Made by a program: the position numbers and the translations under genes. The notes below the pieces were generated by a model, which saw only the letters and a list, made by a program, of their open reading frames with translations, made no database searches and was not told the DNA's origin. From Caldilineaceae bacterium SB0664_bin_27 (GTDB lineage Bacteria > Chloroflexota > Anaerolineae > Caldilineales > Caldilineaceae): 56,527 nt of DNA. This document shows positions 2,430 through 56,527 of the stretch, piece by piece; within the stretch, counting starts at the first letter, position 1, and every line of letters begins with the position of its first letter. The stretch lies in assembly GCA_009838625.1 (NCBI GenBank), contig VXRG01000114.1:1-56527 (forward strand), read 5' to 3'.

Positions 2430-3263
2430 ATGCTGGAAGAACTGAGCCACGCCCAGTGGCAGGAATTTGAACGGGAAGGCTACCTGCGCCTGGGGCACTG
2501 TATGACCGGCGATGAACTGGCCGCGATACAGCAGCGCATGGACGAAATCATGCTCGGTACTGCGCCGGTCGACTACAGCCGCATGATGATGCAGCTGGAC
2601 CGCATCCCCGGCAAGACCGATGCACCCGGCCCTGGGGGGAAAGGGCACAAGGGGGCGACGCTGCACTATCGCAAAATTCAGGATCTGGAGTTCGACCCGC
2701 TCTTCCTGCGCTATATGCAGAGACCGCTCTTCCGCCACATCTGCTGCATGGTATACGGCGCGGACACGCCGGTCGCCTGTATGCGCGCCATGTTCATGAA
2801 CAAGCCCGCGGCCGACCCGGCGGATGGCGGCGGCGAGCAGGCGGGGCAGTCCGTCGGCGGCACACACCTTGTCTGGCATCAGGATCGCTGGACCTATTTC
2901 GACCGCGATCCCCTGATCACCATCTGGACCGCACTCGACCCGGCCACGGTGGCCAACGGCTGCGTCCATATCGCACCCCGCCGCCATCATACTTTGATCA
3001 ACCCTTCCCACGTTTCCGGCTTTATGACCGACGATCAGGCCCATGCGCTGGTAGCGGAAGCCGAGACGGTCCCGCTCGAAATGGAGGCCGGCGAAGCGGT
3101 GCTGCTGCACAACTATCTGCCGCACAGCTCCGGCGTCAACAGCACCGCCATTGCCCGCCGCGCCTTCAGCGTCTGTTACATGGATGCTGCCACTGTAGAC
3201 ACCCAGAACCATGAGTACTCGCTGATCTTCGGCGACGGCGCGCTCGATCCGGAGCGGCTATAA
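2430..3263 (+). CDS. Phytanoyl-CoA dioxygenase (PhyH) family protein, copy 1
   Basis: This 277-residue protein is a predicted non-haem Fe(II)/2-oxoglutarate-dependent oxygenase. The facial triad is visible as WHQDRW (His150, Asp152) and the distal LPHSSG (His232), with Arg243/Arg244 placed to bind 2-oxoglutarate. A Gly/Ala/Asp-rich insertion (about 128-143) precedes the HxD motif. GGAGA lies just upstream of the ATG. It is 67 bases after the aminotransferase and likely co-transcribed. Substrates in this family range from phytanoyl-CoA to small hydroxylated or halogenated metabolites, so the substrate cannot be read here. Two further copies lie at 3405 and 10101. Confidence 0.88.
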   Translation: MLEELSHAQWQEFEREGYLRLGHCMTGDELAAIQQRMDEIMLGTAPVDYSRMMMQLDRIPGKTDAPGPGGKGHKGATLHYRKIQDLEFDPLFLRYMQRPLFRHICCMVYGADTPVACMRAMFMNKPAADPADGGGEQAGQSVGGTHLVWHQDRWTYFDRDPLITIWTALDPATVANGCVHIAPRRHHTLINPSHVSGFMTDDQAHALVAEAETVPLEMEAGEAVLLHNYLPHSSGVNSTAIARRAFSVCYMDAATVDTQNHEYSLIFGDGALDPERL

Positions 3264-3268
3264 CGGCA

Positions 3269-3307
3269 AGAAGCGAGGAGTGAGGGAAGAGGAGTGAGAA
3301 GAGAGTA
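3269..3307 (+). repeat. Purine-rich GAGGAGTGAG dispersed repeat
   Basis: A run of GAGGAGTGAGGGAAGAGGAG-like sequence sits between the first two PhyH genes. The same word family recurs at about 13244, 20603, 33786, 41027, 43758 and 43905, between genes or inside two genes. A CCAACCACTGTAG-type repeat follows at about 3355-3382. Confidence 0.6.
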
Positions 3308-3404
3308 ACCACCTTCCGCTCCTCCACCGCGGCTTTACCGGCAGGGATCAACTGGTCGCCGGCCAACTGTCACCAACCACTGTAGTTTCAGGCAGGAGAG
3401 AGAA

Positions 3405-4214
3405 ATGCAACCCGAAATCGCACTGGCAAAACGGGAACAGATGCTGCAGGACGGTTTCTGCTTCGTTGACGATATCCTCACCGAAGAGTTCCTGCAGGAG
3501 CTGCGTGAAGAGTCCGAGCGCCTCATCGCCGATCACATGCCCCCGCCCGACGTCAGGTACCAGGGCCAGCACGTCAATGTACGCGGCGAGGAGAACGACG
3601 TTATCAAGAGGCTCCTAGAATGGCAGCCGGCGCGGCAAGCGCTCGAGGAGATGGGGTTCGGCGACTTCGAGAGCACCGGCGGAATTATCATCCTGACGAA
3701 GGACCCGGGCGAACCGGCCCTCTACTGGCACCAGGACTGGGCGAGTTGGGAGGACCCCATCAGCGTCACGCCCTGGCCGCAGCAGATTTTCGTCTCCTAC
3801 TATCTGAGCGACACCAGCGTCGAGAACGGCTGTCTCAAGGTCATCCCCGGCACCCACCGCAAGCGTATCCTGCTGCATGATGAGCTGGTGCCCGCCCACG
3901 AACAGGGCGCCCGCTACATTGAAGAGGACCACCCCGTCATGTTCGGCGACCATCCCGATCAGGTCGACGTCTGCGTGCGCGCCCGCTCCTTCGTGTTGGC
4001 GGACGCCCGTCTGCTGCACTCAGCGCGGCGTAATCTGACCGATGAGCGCCGCACGCTCATCCTGGCCTGGCACCGGCGGCGCGACGAGGTCTGGGACAAG
4101 CCCCCCGCCTACTGGGAGGGCGAGATCCCCGAAGTTCTGGTCAATCGCGACGCAAAACGGGAGTACGAACGCTCGCGCATCCCCGGCGAATATCTCGAAT
4201 TCAGCGGCCAGTAG
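3405..4214 (+). CDS. Phytanoyl-CoA dioxygenase (PhyH) family protein, copy 2
   Basis: This 269-residue predicted Fe(II)/2-oxoglutarate oxygenase has the triad YWHQDWASW (His109, Asp111) and LLHSARRN (His205), and Arg215/Arg216 as the candidate 2-oxoglutarate anchor. The ENGCLKVIPGTHRK segment (about 140-153) is the typical PhyH core strand and loop. GGAGAGAG immediately precedes the ATG, supporting this start. It is clearly diverged from copy 1 (2430) rather than a recent duplicate. It sits between copy 1 and a Gfo/Idh dehydrogenase, so it probably acts on an intermediate of the same pathway. Substrate unknown. Confidence 0.88.
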   Translation: MQPEIALAKREQMLQDGFCFVDDILTEEFLQELREESERLIADHMPPPDVRYQGQHVNVRGEENDVIKRLLEWQPARQALEEMGFGDFESTGGIIILTKDPGEPALYWHQDWASWEDPISVTPWPQQIFVSYYLSDTSVENGCLKVIPGTHRKRILLHDELVPAHEQGARYIEEDHPVMFGDHPDQVDVCVRARSFVLADARLLHSARRNLTDERRTLILAWHRRRDEVWDKPPAYWEGEIPEVLVNRDAKREYERSRIPGEYLEFSGQ

Positions 4215-49283: not shown

Positions 49284-49389
49284 GATAAAATTTTTATTAA
49301 CCACAATACGGCAGAGATCGGTTGGCAGTTACGCACATCCGTCTACCGGGGACTGCACTTTCTGACAGAATAGCGCATCCTGGCGGTGG

Positions 49390-49441
49390 ATACCCAATAC
49401 GCCTTGAGTTTGGCGTAAGTCATCTCCCGTTCTTTGGGTAT
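49390..49441 (+). ncRNA. Leader RNA helix with compensatory changes, copy 1
   Basis: ATACCCAA (49390-49397) pairs with TTGGGTAT (49434-49441). In the paralogous leader before the zinc operon, both arms change together (ATTCCCAA with TTGGGAAT), which argues for a maintained RNA helix in the 5' leader. Confidence 0.5.
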
Positions 49442-49522
49442 TTCACCGACTGCCGCAGCTCTGCCGGCTACTGACGCCTATTGTGGGGCACACGCCACCA
49501 GCCTGACGAAAGGGTACCGTAG

Positions 49523-51157
49523 ATGTCTCACTCACTTCGAATTCTGTCATCTGTTCTCGCGCTGTTGTTCCTCTTGGTCGCTTGCACCCCTGCCGCGCCT
49601 GGCACAACTTCCGCCGGCGCCTCGGCAGAGTCGGCCAACCAGGGTTCGCAATCCGCTGCCGTCGCCGACGCTGCAACGGAGCGGCCCACGCTGACGGCGG
49701 GCGTCATCTGGCTGGACAGCCCCCTGGATCCCGTGGAGGGCGGCTACGTCTCCACCCAGTCGGCACTGTCGGAGACCTTGTTCCGACTCTCAGGAACCAC
49801 CCTGAGTCCCGAACCGTGGCTGGCGACGGAAGCCACACACGTAGCCCCCTTTATCTGGAGGATCGGAATCCGGGAGGGCGTCAAATTCCACAACGGGAAT
49901 GTGATGGATGCGCAAGCGGTGAAGGCCTCCCTGGAGCGGGCTATCCGATTGTCGCCGGCGGCGGCCGATACATTGTCCGTTGACACGATAACCGTCGAGG
50001 ACGAGCAAACCATCACCATCAAGACGACGGTAGAGCAGCCCACCCTGCCCGGACTGTTGATTTTACCGGCCCTCGCCATTACCGACGCGGCGGCGGCGGA
50101 CGCAGCCGGAGAGGGCAATTTCATCGCCGCCGGAGCCCTTACCGGCCCGTACATCCCCATCGAGTACACGCCAAAGGAACGACTTGACAGCGTATCCAAC
50201 GACGACTACTGGGGCGGAACGCCTCCGCTGGCCGGCATCAAGCACATCGCCATTCCCGACACCAACAGCCGGGAGTTGGCCCTGCAAGCTGGGGACATCG
50301 ACGTTGCCATCAACGTTTCCCCCAATGGCGCCCAGGCGATCAACGCACACCAAGGGACACACACCGAGACCTCCGGCATCGGCACCTCGCTGGTCCTGTG
50401 GTGGGTGAACTTCGAGCGCGGCACCCTAGCCGACCCGCTGGTGCGCCGGGCGGTGGCCCACGCCATTGACCGGGAGAGCATCGCCGGTCTGGTCGCGCCT
50501 CCCGGCTCCGGGTCCTTCGCTGAGCTCCTGCTCCCGGATGCCCTCGTGGCGTGTCCCGGCGTGAACGCGCTGGGTTACGATCCTGACGCAGCGCGCAATC
50601 TGTTGGCTCAGGCCGGCTACGCCGACAGCGACGGCGACGGAATCCTGGACAAGGACGGTCAGCCGCTGGAAATTATCATCGGCGGTTACCCCGAAAGGTT
50701 CCAGCTGCCCATTATGGCCGAGGCCGCTCAGGCCATGCTCACTGATGTGGGCATCAAGACCGAGGTGCTCATAACAGAATGGTCGGTGGTCAAGGAGCCT
50801 GCATGGGATCTCTTCGGCTGGTACAACACTGTCGTGCAAGGCGGGGGAGACCCGGTATTCAACATCAGCAAGTTCGCCGGGTTGAAGGGCGACGCTAGCG
50901 GCAGCGGGACCAACAACTATGGGCATTACGACGCTTCCCGCCTGGTGGACATAGTCGCCCCATCCACCTCCGTGTCCGACTTGGAGGGTCGAAAGGACAT
51001 AGCCTGCGAGGCCCTGGCGGTGGTCACCGAAGACGCCGCATTCTTGCCGGTGGCGCATGTGAATATGGTGTACGGCGTCAGTGACCGGGTCACCGGTTTC
51101 CAGGCCCACCCAACCTCCCACTATTTCTTCGACCACCGCGTTGGACTGAGCGAGTAA
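49523..51157 (+). CDS. Family 5 solute-binding lipoprotein (NikA-like) of a metal-regulated importer
   Basis: This 544-residue extracellular lipoprotein (lipobox LLVACTP at about 20) has the SBP_bac_5 fold: RIGIREGVKFHNGNVMDAQAVKASLERAI-type segment, RRAVAHAIDRESIAG and a D-x-D-x-D-G loop (SDGDGILDKDG). It heads an operon with two permeases. Its signal peptide is nearly the same as that of the zinc-binding protein at 53572, and the whole upstream region is duplicated. Joint metal regulation is therefore likely, and the ligand may be nickel, a metal-chelator complex or a peptide. AAAGGG lies about 10 bases before the ATG. Confidence 0.87.
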   Translation: MSHSLRILSSVLALLFLLVACTPAAPGTTSAGASAESANQGSQSAAVADAATERPTLTAGVIWLDSPLDPVEGGYVSTQSALSETLFRLSGTTLSPEPWLATEATHVAPFIWRIGIREGVKFHNGNVMDAQAVKASLERAIRLSPAAADTLSVDTITVEDEQTITIKTTVEQPTLPGLLILPALAITDAAAADAAGEGNFIAAGALTGPYIPIEYTPKERLDSVSNDDYWGGTPPLAGIKHIAIPDTNSRELALQAGDIDVAINVSPNGAQAINAHQGTHTETSGIGTSLVLWWVNFERGTLADPLVRRAVAHAIDRESIAGLVAPPGSGSFAELLLPDALVACPGVNALGYDPDAARNLLAQAGYADSDGDGILDKDGQPLEIIIGGYPERFQLPIMAEAAQAMLTDVGIKTEVLITEWSVVKEPAWDLFGWYNTVVQGGGDPVFNISKFAGLKGDASGSGTNNYGHYDASRLVDIVAPSTSVSDLEGRKDIACEALAVVTEDAAFLPVAHVNMVYGVSDRVTGFQAHPTSHYFFDHRVGLSE

Positions 51158-53335: not shown

Positions 53336-53441
53336 GATACAATTATCGTTTCCCGCAATACGACAGAGATCGGGCGGCAGTTACGCAAATCCGTCTACCG
53401 GGTACTGCGCTTTCTGACAGAATAGCACATCCTGGCGATGG

Positions 53442-53494
53442 ATTCCCAATACGACTTTGAGATCGATGTAGATCATCTCCAGTTCTTTGGGAAT
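53442..53494 (+). ncRNA. Leader RNA helix with compensatory changes, copy 2
   Basis: ATTCCCAA (53442-53449) pairs with TTGGGAAT (53487-53494); compare ATACCCAA/TTGGGTAT at 49390-49441. A second conserved helix candidate in both leaders is GCAGT with ACTGC around the conserved ATCCGTCTACCGG. Confidence 0.5.
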
Positions 53495-53571
53495 TGCACC
53501 GACTGCCGCAGTTCTGTTGGACGCCTATTGTGGGGGCACACGTCACCAGTCTGGTGAAAGGGTACCCGCAG

Positions 53572-55920
53572 ATGCTTCACTCACTTCGAATTCTCACATC
53601 GCTTCTGGCAATTCTGTTCCTCCTCGCCGCTTGCACCCCAGTCGCGCCTTCAAGTGTCCAGCCAGACCAGGAGGCGTCACCCTCCGACACGCCGGTCCAG
53701 GTCGTGGCAACCACCAACTTTGTGGCCGATTGGGCCAGGGTGGTAGGTGGAAGCAGAGTAGAGGTCTTCGGCCTGCTTCCGGTAGGCGGCGACCCGCACA
53801 CCTTTCTGCCAGGCGCTCGCGACGTTGCCAGGGTAGCTGACGCCGATCTTGTGTTGACTGTCGGTCTCGGCCTGGAGGCCGACTGGCTGCAGGATCTGTT
53901 ACACAACGCTAGTGCAGATGAATCCAGGATCGTCGCGCTTGGTGATGGAGTCGATCCGATCGAGTTCGCCATGGCCGATATGCATGGCGACCACGACGAC
54001 CACGACGACTACGACGACCATGGCGACCATGATGACGACCATGGCGACCATGATGACGACCACGGCGACCATGACGACGACCACGGCGACCATGACGAGA
54101 TGATCAGGGGGCGCTTGCTCGTCGCGGATGCGGTAGAAGCACACCTCTCCGTCATCGATCTTTCGACCGGTGACGTTGACAGCGGAATCTTCGCGGTCGC
54201 CGCGCCCCGCGCCACCGTGCACCCCAGCCCCGCTCACCGCTACGCCATCGTCCTCGCCCGCGGGCCGGAGGACGGCGACGACCGGATCCACATCTTCGAC
54301 AGCGGCGTCTTCCTCGTCGAGCACGGCGATCACTACGACCTCGTCACCCAACCCGTCTCCCGTCACGCGTTGGAAATCGCTGACGAGCAGCCGGTCCATT
54401 ACGTCAACAGCCACGGCTGGACCGCGATCTTCGCAGACATCAACGGTCATGCCATCCTGATCAACGAGGCAGACCTGGCGAACTCACGCGGCGACTATGA
54501 GCCGGTCGTGCTTGAGGCCGGACCGCAGCATGGCGCCGCGCTTGTCATCTCCGACGAGCACGTCGTCATTACCACGAAGAATCCCGACTACCCCGAGAAT
54601 TCCGACGACAGCCTGCCTGTTGGCGTGGAAGTTCGCGACTTCAGTGATCAAGTCGTCTACGACGCCAGCAATCGCTCATGCCCGGGCATGCACGGTGAAT
54701 CCCACAATGAGCATGGCGTCGCCTTAGGATGCACCGGCGGCGTGCTCTTCCTCCACACTCACGATGGCGAGTTCGAGCACGAGTTCATCGCCAATCCGCC
54801 AGAGATGCGAGAAGACTCTCGGATCGGGGCGGTCTACGGTCACCACCACGTCGAGCATTTCTTCGGCAAGGCCTCCTACTACGACGGTCAGGGCTTCGCC
54901 GACGATGGCATTTGGCTGATCGACGTGGACCACAGCGAAATGCGCCAGGTGTTCAGCGAGCCAAGCGTTTCCACGAAGTTCTCCAGCGATGGCGAACTGC
55001 TCTACGTGCTCGGCACTGACGGCGTTCTGCACGCGCTCGACGCGCATGACGGCGAACTGCTTGAGACCATGGAGTTGGTCGGGCCTGGTGATGCCGGTCG
55101 TCCCGCCTTCATCGTTGTTGGCGAGTGGCTCTACGTCGCCGACCCCAACAGCGGCCACGTCTTCGCCGTCCACCTTGAAGAGATGGAGATCGAGGAGGAG
55201 TGGGAAGTCGGCGGCGCACCGTCGAGCCTGGCGTTCGTCGGACTCGTCGACTCGGGCGGCGCGCCCGATGAAGGCCATGACGACCATGACGACCACGGCG
55301 ATGATGACGACGACCATGGCGACCATGATGACCACGGCGATGACGACGACGACCACAGTGACCATGACGGCCATGAAGGGCACCACCACGGCCCTCTGGA
55401 TCCCCACTTCTGGTTCGATCCGATCCGGGTGAAGATCGCGGTCAACGAGATAGCCGCCCAGCTTTCGGCCATCGACCCTGAAGGCGCGGAGACCTACCTG
55501 CGGAACGCCTCTGAGTATGGGAAGCAGCTCGACGAGCTTCACGCCTGGACCCTGGAACAGATCAGTGCCGTGGCGCCGGAGCGCAGACTGCTGGTTACAT
55601 CACACGACGCCTTCTCCTACTTCGCAGAGTTGTATGGGTTCGAGGTAATTGGACTGGTTATACCCTCTCTTGCGACGCACGTGGAGCCCTCCGCGGAGCA
55701 CATGGCGGCACTGGTCGACGTGGTACGGGAACACGACTTGCCGGCCCTGTTTGGCGAGACGACAGTCAGCGAGAGGCTGGCGCAAACCATAGCAACCGAG
55801 ACTGGCGCGCAGCTGTTCCGGCTCTATTCCGGTTCGCTTGGGCCGGAGGGCAGCGGCGCTGACACCTACCTTGGCATGGTGCGTGCGAATGTGGAACGCA
55901 TCGTTGAGGCTCTGAAATGA
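53572..55920 (+). CDS. Zinc ABC solute-binding lipoprotein (AztC/ZnuA-type) with inserted AztD-like metallochaperone propeller
   Basis: This 782-residue lipoprotein (lipobox LLAAC, Cys21) is more than twice the usual ZnuA/AztC length. Residues 42-132 are the N-terminal cluster A-I lobe with GGDPHTFLP (His76). Residues 137-176 are a His/Asp repeat. Residues about 179-560 match the AztD-type zinc chaperone propeller: LLVADAVEAHLSVIDLSTG, IFDSGVFLVEHGDHYD, and Cys370/Cys387 in CPGMHGESHNEHG to LGC. A second His/Asp repeat is 568-606. The C-terminal lobe has DPHFWFDP (His612), SHDAFSYFAE (His678), and Glu729 or Asp764. All expected metal ligands survive. It should capture and deliver periplasmic-side zinc to an ABC permease and is coupled (ATGA) to the next ATPase gene. 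Confidence 0.88.
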   Translation: MLHSLRILTSLLAILFLLAACTPVAPSSVQPDQEASPSDTPVQVVATTNFVADWARVVGGSRVEVFGLLPVGGDPHTFLPGARDVARVADADLVLTVGLGLEADWLQDLLHNASADESRIVALGDGVDPIEFAMADMHGDHDDHDDYDDHGDHDDDHGDHDDDHGDHDDDHGDHDEMIRGRLLVADAVEAHLSVIDLSTGDVDSGIFAVAAPRATVHPSPAHRYAIVLARGPEDGDDRIHIFDSGVFLVEHGDHYDLVTQPVSRHALEIADEQPVHYVNSHGWTAIFADINGHAILINEADLANSRGDYEPVVLEAGPQHGAALVISDEHVVITTKNPDYPENSDDSLPVGVEVRDFSDQVVYDASNRSCPGMHGESHNEHGVALGCTGGVLFLHTHDGEFEHEFIANPPEMREDSRIGAVYGHHHVEHFFGKASYYDGQGFADDGIWLIDVDHSEMRQVFSEPSVSTKFSSDGELLYVLGTDGVLHALDAHDGELLETMELVGPGDAGRPAFIVVGEWLYVADPNSGHVFAVHLEEMEIEEEWEVGGAPSSLAFVGLVDSGGAPDEGHDDHDDHGDDDDDHGDHDDHGDDDDDHSDHDGHEGHHHGPLDPHFWFDPIRVKIAVNEIAAQLSAIDPEGAETYLRNASEYGKQLDELHAWTLEQISAVAPERRLLVTSHDAFSYFAELYGFEVIGLVIPSLATHVEPSAEHMAALVDVVREHDLPALFGETTVSERLAQTIATETGAQLFRLYSGSLGPEGSGADTYLGMVRANVERIVEALK
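53983..54099 (+). repeat. Tandem repeat encoding first His/Asp-rich tract
   Basis: Near-perfect repeats of CATGATGACGACCATGGCGAC encode HGDHDDD units (residues 138-176 of the zinc-binding protein). It is a metal-binding loop region and prone to length change. Confidence 0.85.
55273..55389 (+). repeat. Tandem repeat encoding second His/Asp-rich tract
   Basis: Repeats of GACCATGACGACCACGGCGA-type units encode HDDHGDDDDD units (residues 568-606). It lies immediately before the DPHFWFDP zinc ligand segment. Confidence 0.85.
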
Positions 55921-56527
55921 ACACTGCCCATTACCCGCACGCCGCCAGAATGTCGCTTCAGGACGTGACCGTCGAGTTCGATGGGCACAAGGCCCTGAGC
56001 GGCGTCAGCTTCGACGTAGGCGCGGGCACGCTGATGGGCGTTGTAGGACCGAACGGCGCCGGCAAAAGCACGCTGTTCAATGCGATTGCCGGGCTCCTCC
56101 CGGTCCGCCGGGGGAAGGTTACCCTTCACCGTGTGGACCAGGGAAGCGGCGCCTTGGCCTACGTGCCTCAGCGAGAGAGCGTCAACTGGCGGTTCCCCGT
56201 GACCGCCATGGACGTTGTCATGATGGGCCGCTGCTGCAGACTGGGATGGTGCCGGCGTCCCGGGAAGAGAGATCGCGAGCTTGTCGACGACTGCCTGTGC
56301 CGCGTGGGTCTGTCGGACCATCGCTCCGCTCTGATGACCGAGCTTTCGGGAGGGCAGAGGCAGAGGGTATTCGTAGCCAGGGCGCTCACCCAGGAGGCGA
56401 GTGTGCTTCTTCTGGATGAGGCCTTCAGCGGCGTTGACGCCGGCGCGCAGGAGGGCCTCGTAGAGGTCCTCCAAACGGTGCGCAATGAAGGACGCATTGT
56501 CCTGCTGGCGACCCACGACCTGACCAA
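55917..56527 (+). CDS. Zinc/manganese-type ABC ATPase (AztA/ZnuC-like), 3' end outside window
   Basis: About 203 codons are present before the window ends. The protein begins MNTAHYPHAARMSLQDVTVE and has Walker A GPNGAGKST, Q-loop YVPQRESVNW, signature LSGGQRQRV, Walker B VLLLDEAFSGVDAG and H-loop ATHD. Walker B reads DEAF instead of the usual DEPF. Its ATG overlaps the stop of the zinc-binding-protein gene by four bases, so they are translationally coupled. The permease should follow beyond the window. Confidence 0.9.
   Translation, partial: MNTAHYPHAARMSLQDVTVEFDGHKALSGVSFDVGAGTLMGVVGPNGAGKSTLFNAIAGLLPVRRGKVTLHRVDQGSGALAYVPQRESVNWRFPVTAMDVVMMGRCCRLGWCRRPGKRDRELVDDCLCRVGLSDHRSALMTELSGGQRQRVFVARALTQEASVLLLDEAFSGVDAGAQEGLVEVLQTVRNEGRIVLLATHDLT

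Follow-up and report, generated by a model that had tools for sequence, protein, structure and literature searches.

How does an AztD-type metallochaperone domain come to lie within the zinc-binding protein of an importer, and what would it do there? This question is raised by a gene on the plus strand of the window (the whole 56,527-nucleotide stretch of DNA analysed here), where positions 53572..55920 encode a nested AztC-AztD lipoprotein of 782 amino acids plus stop in one uninterrupted frame with zero internal stops (coding part 53572-55917), as indicated by its translation and profile matches. The same two families, with the same zinc ligands, disulphide, ABC operon logic and Fur/CobW neighbourhood, are found in the AztC and AztD of Paracoccus denitrificans (PMC6689063). 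However, the latter are two proteins between which transfer is bimolecular, whereas here AztD is nested in the D-loop of AztC within one chain.

The nearest precedent for a donor and an acceptor in one chain is AdcA of Streptococcus pneumoniae (AdcAN plus the ZinT-like AdcAC), which likewise fuses a zinc-binding protein with an accessory zinc domain that aids uptake, with a His-rich loop between them (PMC7858048). In AdcA the accessory domain, a ZinT-like lipocalin fold, is placed at the C-terminus via an 11-residue linker (PMC7858048), whereas here a propeller is inserted in the loop and the binding-protein fold is split. The original prediction knew of no description of this architecture, and the literature that we searched, from which subscription papers were mostly missing, likewise yielded no description of an AztC-AztD fusion or of a domain inserted in this loop; the idea of a fused chaperone-like domain is itself not new (AdcA, PMC7858048). 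Domain databases may already list the nested architecture, unnamed. The parts are known; the nesting and the exchangeable cassette proposed below are new.

The split binding protein and its insert

The frame carries the four motifs that the original prediction had named in a single 782-residue protein, with GGDPHTF at residue 72, DPHFWFDP at 610, SHDAF at 677 and FGET at 727, as borne out by translation. It opens with a lipoprotein signal recognized from the sequence (53572..53634, +; lipobox LLAAC with Cys21), and a lipobox-like motif lies ahead of the N lobe in 37 of the 40 nested homologues. The ZnuA profile PF01297 matched the protein in two stretches at 2.8e-77 with 260 bits (cut-off 29 bits), and the AztC profile NF040870 matched both lobes, also in two stretches, at 8.1e-76 with 255 bits, in agreement with the ZnuA-type assignment proposed for both. 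The latter score is below the NCBI curated cut-off of 350 bits, and on its profile matches the split binding protein is termed AztC-like rather than AztC. When the lobes were profiled separately, the N-terminal lobe (residues 41-133; 53692..53970, +) corresponded to AztC 1-106 and the C-terminal lobe (residues 607-782; 55390..55917, +) to AztC 90-277. Thus, the two lobes together cover the whole binding protein, with the break within the D-loop (residues 117-133 in Paracoccus AztC; PMC7463823), so that the insertion falls by profile position exactly in the flexible loop of AztC where it had been placed. The two widely separated cluster A-I lobes that had been anticipated are recovered at about residues 41-133 and 604-782, with about 470 residues between them.

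All four AztC zinc ligands are present, namely H76 (53797-53799) in the N-terminal lobe and H612, H678 and D764 in the C-terminal lobe, which constitute the zinc-type His, His, His, Asp set. This bears on whether the importer might serve another metal (Mn, Fe or Ni), with the propeller repurposed. Mn and Fe carriers do occur among the cluster A-I proteins, and MntC-like models also score well; however, the third ligand is His (H678) as against the Glu of Mn carriers such as PsaA, and the His-rich loop, the retained AztD ligands and the Fur and CobW neighbours likewise speak for zinc, leaving this reading very improbable in our assessment.

Between the lobes, residues 178-557 (54103..55242, +) form a predicted eight-bladed propeller of the AztD type, an assignment based on the profile NF038015, on matches to 6cmk and 6ck1 by sequence and on a Z score of 40.4 to 6ck1. 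NF038015 matched residues 184-556 over positions 1-354 of its 356 at 3.4e-41 with 141 bits; the lack of an AztD match over about residues 179-560, which would have refuted the original prediction, was thus not encountered. Its curated cut-off of 400 bits was not met, nor did any Chloroflexota match searched reach 400, and the propeller, as judged by this profile, carries the label AztD-type rather than the name AztD. In an alignment with AztD chains of solved structure, every ligand named in PMC6689063 except the last has an exact counterpart. At site 2, the transfer site, H99, H102 and D104 of Paracoccus AztD correspond to H251, H254 and D256 in the motif HGDHYD (54322..54339, +). At site 1, H124, H167 and H218 correspond to H276 (54397..54399, +), H320 (54529..54531, +) and H374, which shares the stretch 54679..54732 (+) with C370 and C387, the counterparts of the disulphide C214-C231. 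The remaining, fourth site-2 ligand in Paracoccus AztD is the C-terminal His408 (PMC6689063). Its putative counterpart, by position only and with ligation unproven, is H569 (55276-55278), 12 residues beyond the propeller end, a column that is His in all 24 nested sequences with a letter there.

Some site 1 ligands are missing in three divergent nested propellers, which read NQQ (L067), HHQ (L066) and HQQ (L108) at these positions. Site 2 is intact in L066 and L108 despite these losses, and L067, in which site 1 is gone, has in addition one site-2 substitution (H102 to D). Loss of site 1 first, with site 2 mostly kept, would fit a working-donor role for site 2, with the caveat of a small sample (n=3).

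The D-loop has retained its place and is interrupted by the propeller with a His/Asp arm on each side. The first arm (residues 135-177; 53974..54102, +), representing the first half of the interrupted loop, contains 11 His and 22 Asp among 43 residues. The second (residues 558-606, including H569; 55243..55389, +) contains 12 His and 21 Asp among 51 when counted over residues 556-606, bringing the two arms together to 23 His. The tracts at 135-177 and 556-606 match the His/Asp repeats claimed for either flank of the propeller. The arms of the 40 nested proteins are 17-70 (arm 1) and 11-85 (arm 2) residues long, and their median His+Asp+Glu contents are 0.63 and 0.71, respectively; such arms are found in nearly all of them, the exception being L096 with its short, His-poor arms.

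An AlphaFold2 model built with 25 nested sequences has a mean pLDDT of 74.5 and a pTM of 0.53, with the propeller and lobes mostly confident and both arms disordered (pLDDT under 50). Its best PDB matches are the AztD structures 6cmk, 6n01 and 6ck1 (Z 38.8-40.4). In VIA-align comparisons, 6ck1 matched model residues 137-520 (Z 40.4) and AztC (5kzj/5w57) matched model residues 1-742 (Z 32.0, 35% identity), the span of the latter indicating that the two lobes are predicted to assemble around the insert into a single binding-protein fold. For the type B protein L049 (see below for the types), a second model gave Z 38.5 to AztD and 30.2 to AztC, with a pTM of 0.52. Neither model fixes the mutual orientation of propeller and lobes: a propeller packed on the zinc cleft had been foreseen, of which the propeller is predicted with good confidence but the packing is not settled.

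Recurrence of the nested gene and its operon

All 40 distinct complete nested proteins examined are arranged as N lobe, propeller and C lobe, a recurrence that excludes a chance origin. The nesting of an AztD-type propeller in an AztC-type protein, the core of the original prediction, is upheld by the HMM matches, by the conserved zinc ligands, by the predicted structures and by about 40 distinct homologues. As the repeats coding for the His/Asp tracts around the propeller can mislead assembly, two genes could in principle have been joined there artefactually. However, the full-length architecture is present in 40 distinct proteins from many assemblies, and single-contig genomes (G012 and the OY282376.1 and OX638325.1 chromosomes) carry it too; this potential refutation of the prediction has failed, and we give an assembly join practically no credence.

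An AztD match was found in 11 of the 17 genomes of the genus; the remaining 6 lack any AztD, which indicates that it is dispensable. The matching frames in these 11 genomes are 782-851 residues long, save for two of 575 and 622 residues, in which an N lobe and propeller run into the end of the available sequence, and no standalone AztD is present among the AztD matches of the 17 genomes. A scan of genome contigs gave 28 loci, 26 of them with the nested gene (three of these cut by a contig end); the other two are L054, with a standalone AztD, and L062, with a fragment. Five strong AztD matches were recovered from 400 evenly drawn Chloroflexota genomes, each of them a nested gene (frames of 747-841 residues); a sixth match, at 1.5e-15, is weaker and lies in a frame of 507 residues that has no lobes. 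The class of G374 has 44 strong matches, of which 30 have frames of 763-971 residues and 14 have shorter ones of 372-583; both lobes are present in 23 of the 23 long frames read and absent from all 7 of the short frames read.

Two loci lie in bins of other affiliation. L055, from a bin labelled Acidimicrobiia, is a nested gene that lies near L057 and L061; its presence there may reflect a transfer across phyla or an error of binning. The short frame L062:4384-4932, from an alphaproteobacterial bin, contains parts of the propeller and of the beginning of the C lobe (74-83% identical), and is apparently a degraded copy.

The stop codon of the nested gene is overlapped by the start codon of an ABC ATPase gene of the same operon (55917..56527, +; PF00005, 4.8e-26; four-base overlap), which is cut by the contig end. 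In relatives the gene order is Fur, nested gene, ABC ATPase, ABC-3 permease, a gene without Pfam match and CobW. On contig C107 of this genome the permease comes first, and after it an unknown gene, CobW, a WD40-like gene and an intact Fur; this contig probably continues the window contig. With ATPase and ABC-3 permease genes present, the locus qualifies as an AztABCD-type operon. The gene between permease and CobW is conserved (387-392 residues; L036:9592-10767 and L111:1160-2320), and its L036 copy has no Pfam match. In the type B loci L052, L056 and L059, the downstream ATPase-permease pair is absent, and about 0.6 kb from the nested gene there is an ABC-3 permease-like gene on the other strand.

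Upstream of the nested gene is a decayed Fur-family remnant (53357..53521, +; tblastn pieces, 69-81% identity) where relatives have an intact gene. The intact copy of this genome, at G000:C107:4883-5317, is 88% identical to the Fur of L035. A second decayed Fur-family remnant, at 49302-49468, is also directly upstream of a lipoprotein gene. This gene, an SBP_bac_5 lipoprotein (49523-51157), has in common with the nested gene both the upstream Fur remnant and the leader MxHSLRIL.S.LA.LFLLAACTP.AP; these likenesses suggest that a block of upstream region and leader, common to both, was duplicated onto the operon of an unrelated transporter.

In three genomes of the genus, the binding protein of this operon is un-nested, with lobes about 80-85% identical and a 70-110 residue His/Asp/Glu tract in place of the propeller-bearing loop. 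The complete genome L035 carries the un-nested and nested forms side by side, in a tandem (L035:1286-7758) of Fur, un-nested binding protein, ATPase, permease, Fur and nested binding protein. The genus offers a natural control in that this operon occurs in it in both forms, propeller-bearing and propeller-free. Neither this second form of the operon, nor the wide distribution of the gene, nor the exchange of the propeller had been foreseen in the original prediction.

A proposed donor and its acceptor in one chain

In Paracoccus, transfer from AztD to AztC is associative, proceeds only from site 2, requires the D-loop and is limited by how slowly the two proteins meet (575-1330 per M per s); the termini of AztD lie near the transfer site, its N-terminal His motif is unnecessary for transfer, and in the docking model the intact D-loop enters the propeller pore (PMC6689063, PMC7463823). 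As the termini are close to the transfer site, splicing the propeller into the D-loop puts the donor beside the acceptor. We consider it fairly probable that the product of the nested gene is an AztABC-type importer's zinc-capturing lipoprotein, equipped with an internal metallochaperone, that zinc passes from site 2 to the protein's own cleft, and that the propeller is exchanged at the His/Asp repeats; the transfer is inferred, with no biochemical evidence in any nested protein. Under this proposal, the propeller would sit inside the D-loop, held by two His/Asp-rich arms that are both disordered and about 40-50 residues long, and the splice by its termini would hold site 2 beside the zinc cleft. 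Zinc would then move from site 2 to H76/H612/H678/D764 of the same chain, and the loaded binding protein would feed the permease. The tethered encounter would replace the slow bimolecular one and also keep the chaperone on the cell. A Gaussian-chain estimate for an arm of 43-47 residues gives an effective concentration of 2-12 mM and about 1-15 per s, a rough inference that assumes the encounter to remain rate limiting. The Paracoccus pore-threading cannot hold unchanged, since the loop is here a tether interrupted by the propeller.

The 23 His in the arms of the window protein admit another reading, namely that propeller and arms act as a surface zinc antenna or reservoir, from which zinc reaches the binding site via solution or along the arms without a docked hand-over from site 2. 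The un-nested sisters, with their tract in the same place and no propeller, and the EDTA lability of both AztD sites in Paracoccus (PMC6689063) are compatible with this. However, the sequence and length of the arms vary freely whereas the site 2 ligands are nearly invariant, and an antenna has no need for a propeller, a disulphide or a cleft-side position; we regard it as unlikely without dismissing it. Beta-propellers are also common as binding platforms, and the D-loop is a disordered place tolerant of insertion, which would allow the propeller to act in trans on other proteins or neighbouring copies, or as a recognition or adhesion domain, with the loop merely a permissive site. That the insert is always AztD, the chaperone of this very family, in backbones down to 35% identity, with conserved metal ligands and a zinc operon context, makes this quite improbable. 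The built-in chaperone has points counting against it as well, namely the site-2 substitution of L067, the short, His-poor arms of L096, the 6 of 17 genus genomes without AztD, the low confidence in how the domains are placed, the loop geometry that must differ from the Paracoccus docking model and the dispensability of the N-terminal His motif for transfer in Paracoccus. Intramolecular zinc transfer remains the best-supported function, as an inference that has not been shown.

The hand-over from AztD to AztC is one of the few direct protein-protein zinc transfers to have been measured, but for its transfer complex there is only a docking model. A naturally occurring chain with both donor and acceptor opens this complex to study, offering one protein to crystallise or image at 1:1 stoichiometry, in which transfer should be first order and concentration independent.

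Conflicting histories of propellers and backbones

Trees of the lobes resolve three well-supported and distant backbone types: A, which includes the window protein; B, comprising L046 and its relatives, about 35% identical to type A; and C, comprising L058, L089 and L103 with L096. All three carry the propeller, and close backbones with different propellers also occur. The propeller tree conflicts with the lobe tree in that type A propellers fall in several places, and its strongly supported branches force at least three switches. In AU tests, type A propellers as one clade were rejected at p ~5e-36, and at p 1e-46 when the three most divergent propellers were left out. Pairwise identities diverge correspondingly: the window protein shares 82% of its propeller but 33-41% of its lobes with the type B protein L046, 81-82% of its lobes but 63% of its propeller with L057, and 77-78% of its lobes but 34% of its propeller with L066.

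We also considered a deep duplication followed by differential loss; it is rejected by the AU tests and by the identity conflict running both ways between propeller and lobes (L046, L057).

Among the closest pairs (L036-L038, L036-L039 and L038-L039), the propeller has a dS of 0.11-0.13, as against 0.35-0.44 for the C lobe, 0.27-0.34 for the ATPase and 0.24-0.28 for CobW. This low value suggests a recent spread of the propeller between species, of which codon bias could explain part. The composition of the insert bears no clear foreign mark, either in GC (0.63 as against 0.61-0.62 in the lobes) or in GC3 (0.80 as against 0.66-0.75). In the lobe tree the un-nested sisters branch within the nested clade, for which loss of the cassette is the simplest reading. 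One family of DNA repeats, 60-76% identical, is present on both flanks of the propeller and may be a plausible recombination site.

The conflicting relationships of backbones and propellers indicate that the propeller behaves as an exchangeable cassette between the His/Asp repeats. We lean, by a small measure, toward the AztD propeller being a mobile plug-in cassette, which recombination at repeats coding for His/Asp tracts has repeatedly inserted, removed and swapped in the D-loop of distant zinc-binding proteins, making a self-loading importer subunit. Swapping of this kind points to domain exchange at low-complexity His/Asp repeats, which would act as joints, the insert coming to lie at a functional contact site.

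Separate forms of the two components are found elsewhere. On the Thermus brockianus plasmid pTB1, an SBP gene is followed after 34 nt by a separate AztD-like gene, with a GTP-binding protein gene downstream, in what looks like a split state. Standalone AztD lipoproteins of Chloroflexota (L054/L106 and L084-L098) belong to the same propeller clade and have a His/Asp tract before the propeller and a His at or near the C-terminus, with no lobes in frame. At L054, the standalone AztD lipoprotein adjoins a His-rich cation-efflux gene of the zinc exporter type (1156-2343 and 2553-4082). L030:1264-4038 encodes a 925-residue lipoprotein without binding-protein lobes, in which an AztD-like propeller (30% identity) is followed by a His/Asp tract and then by a further long region.
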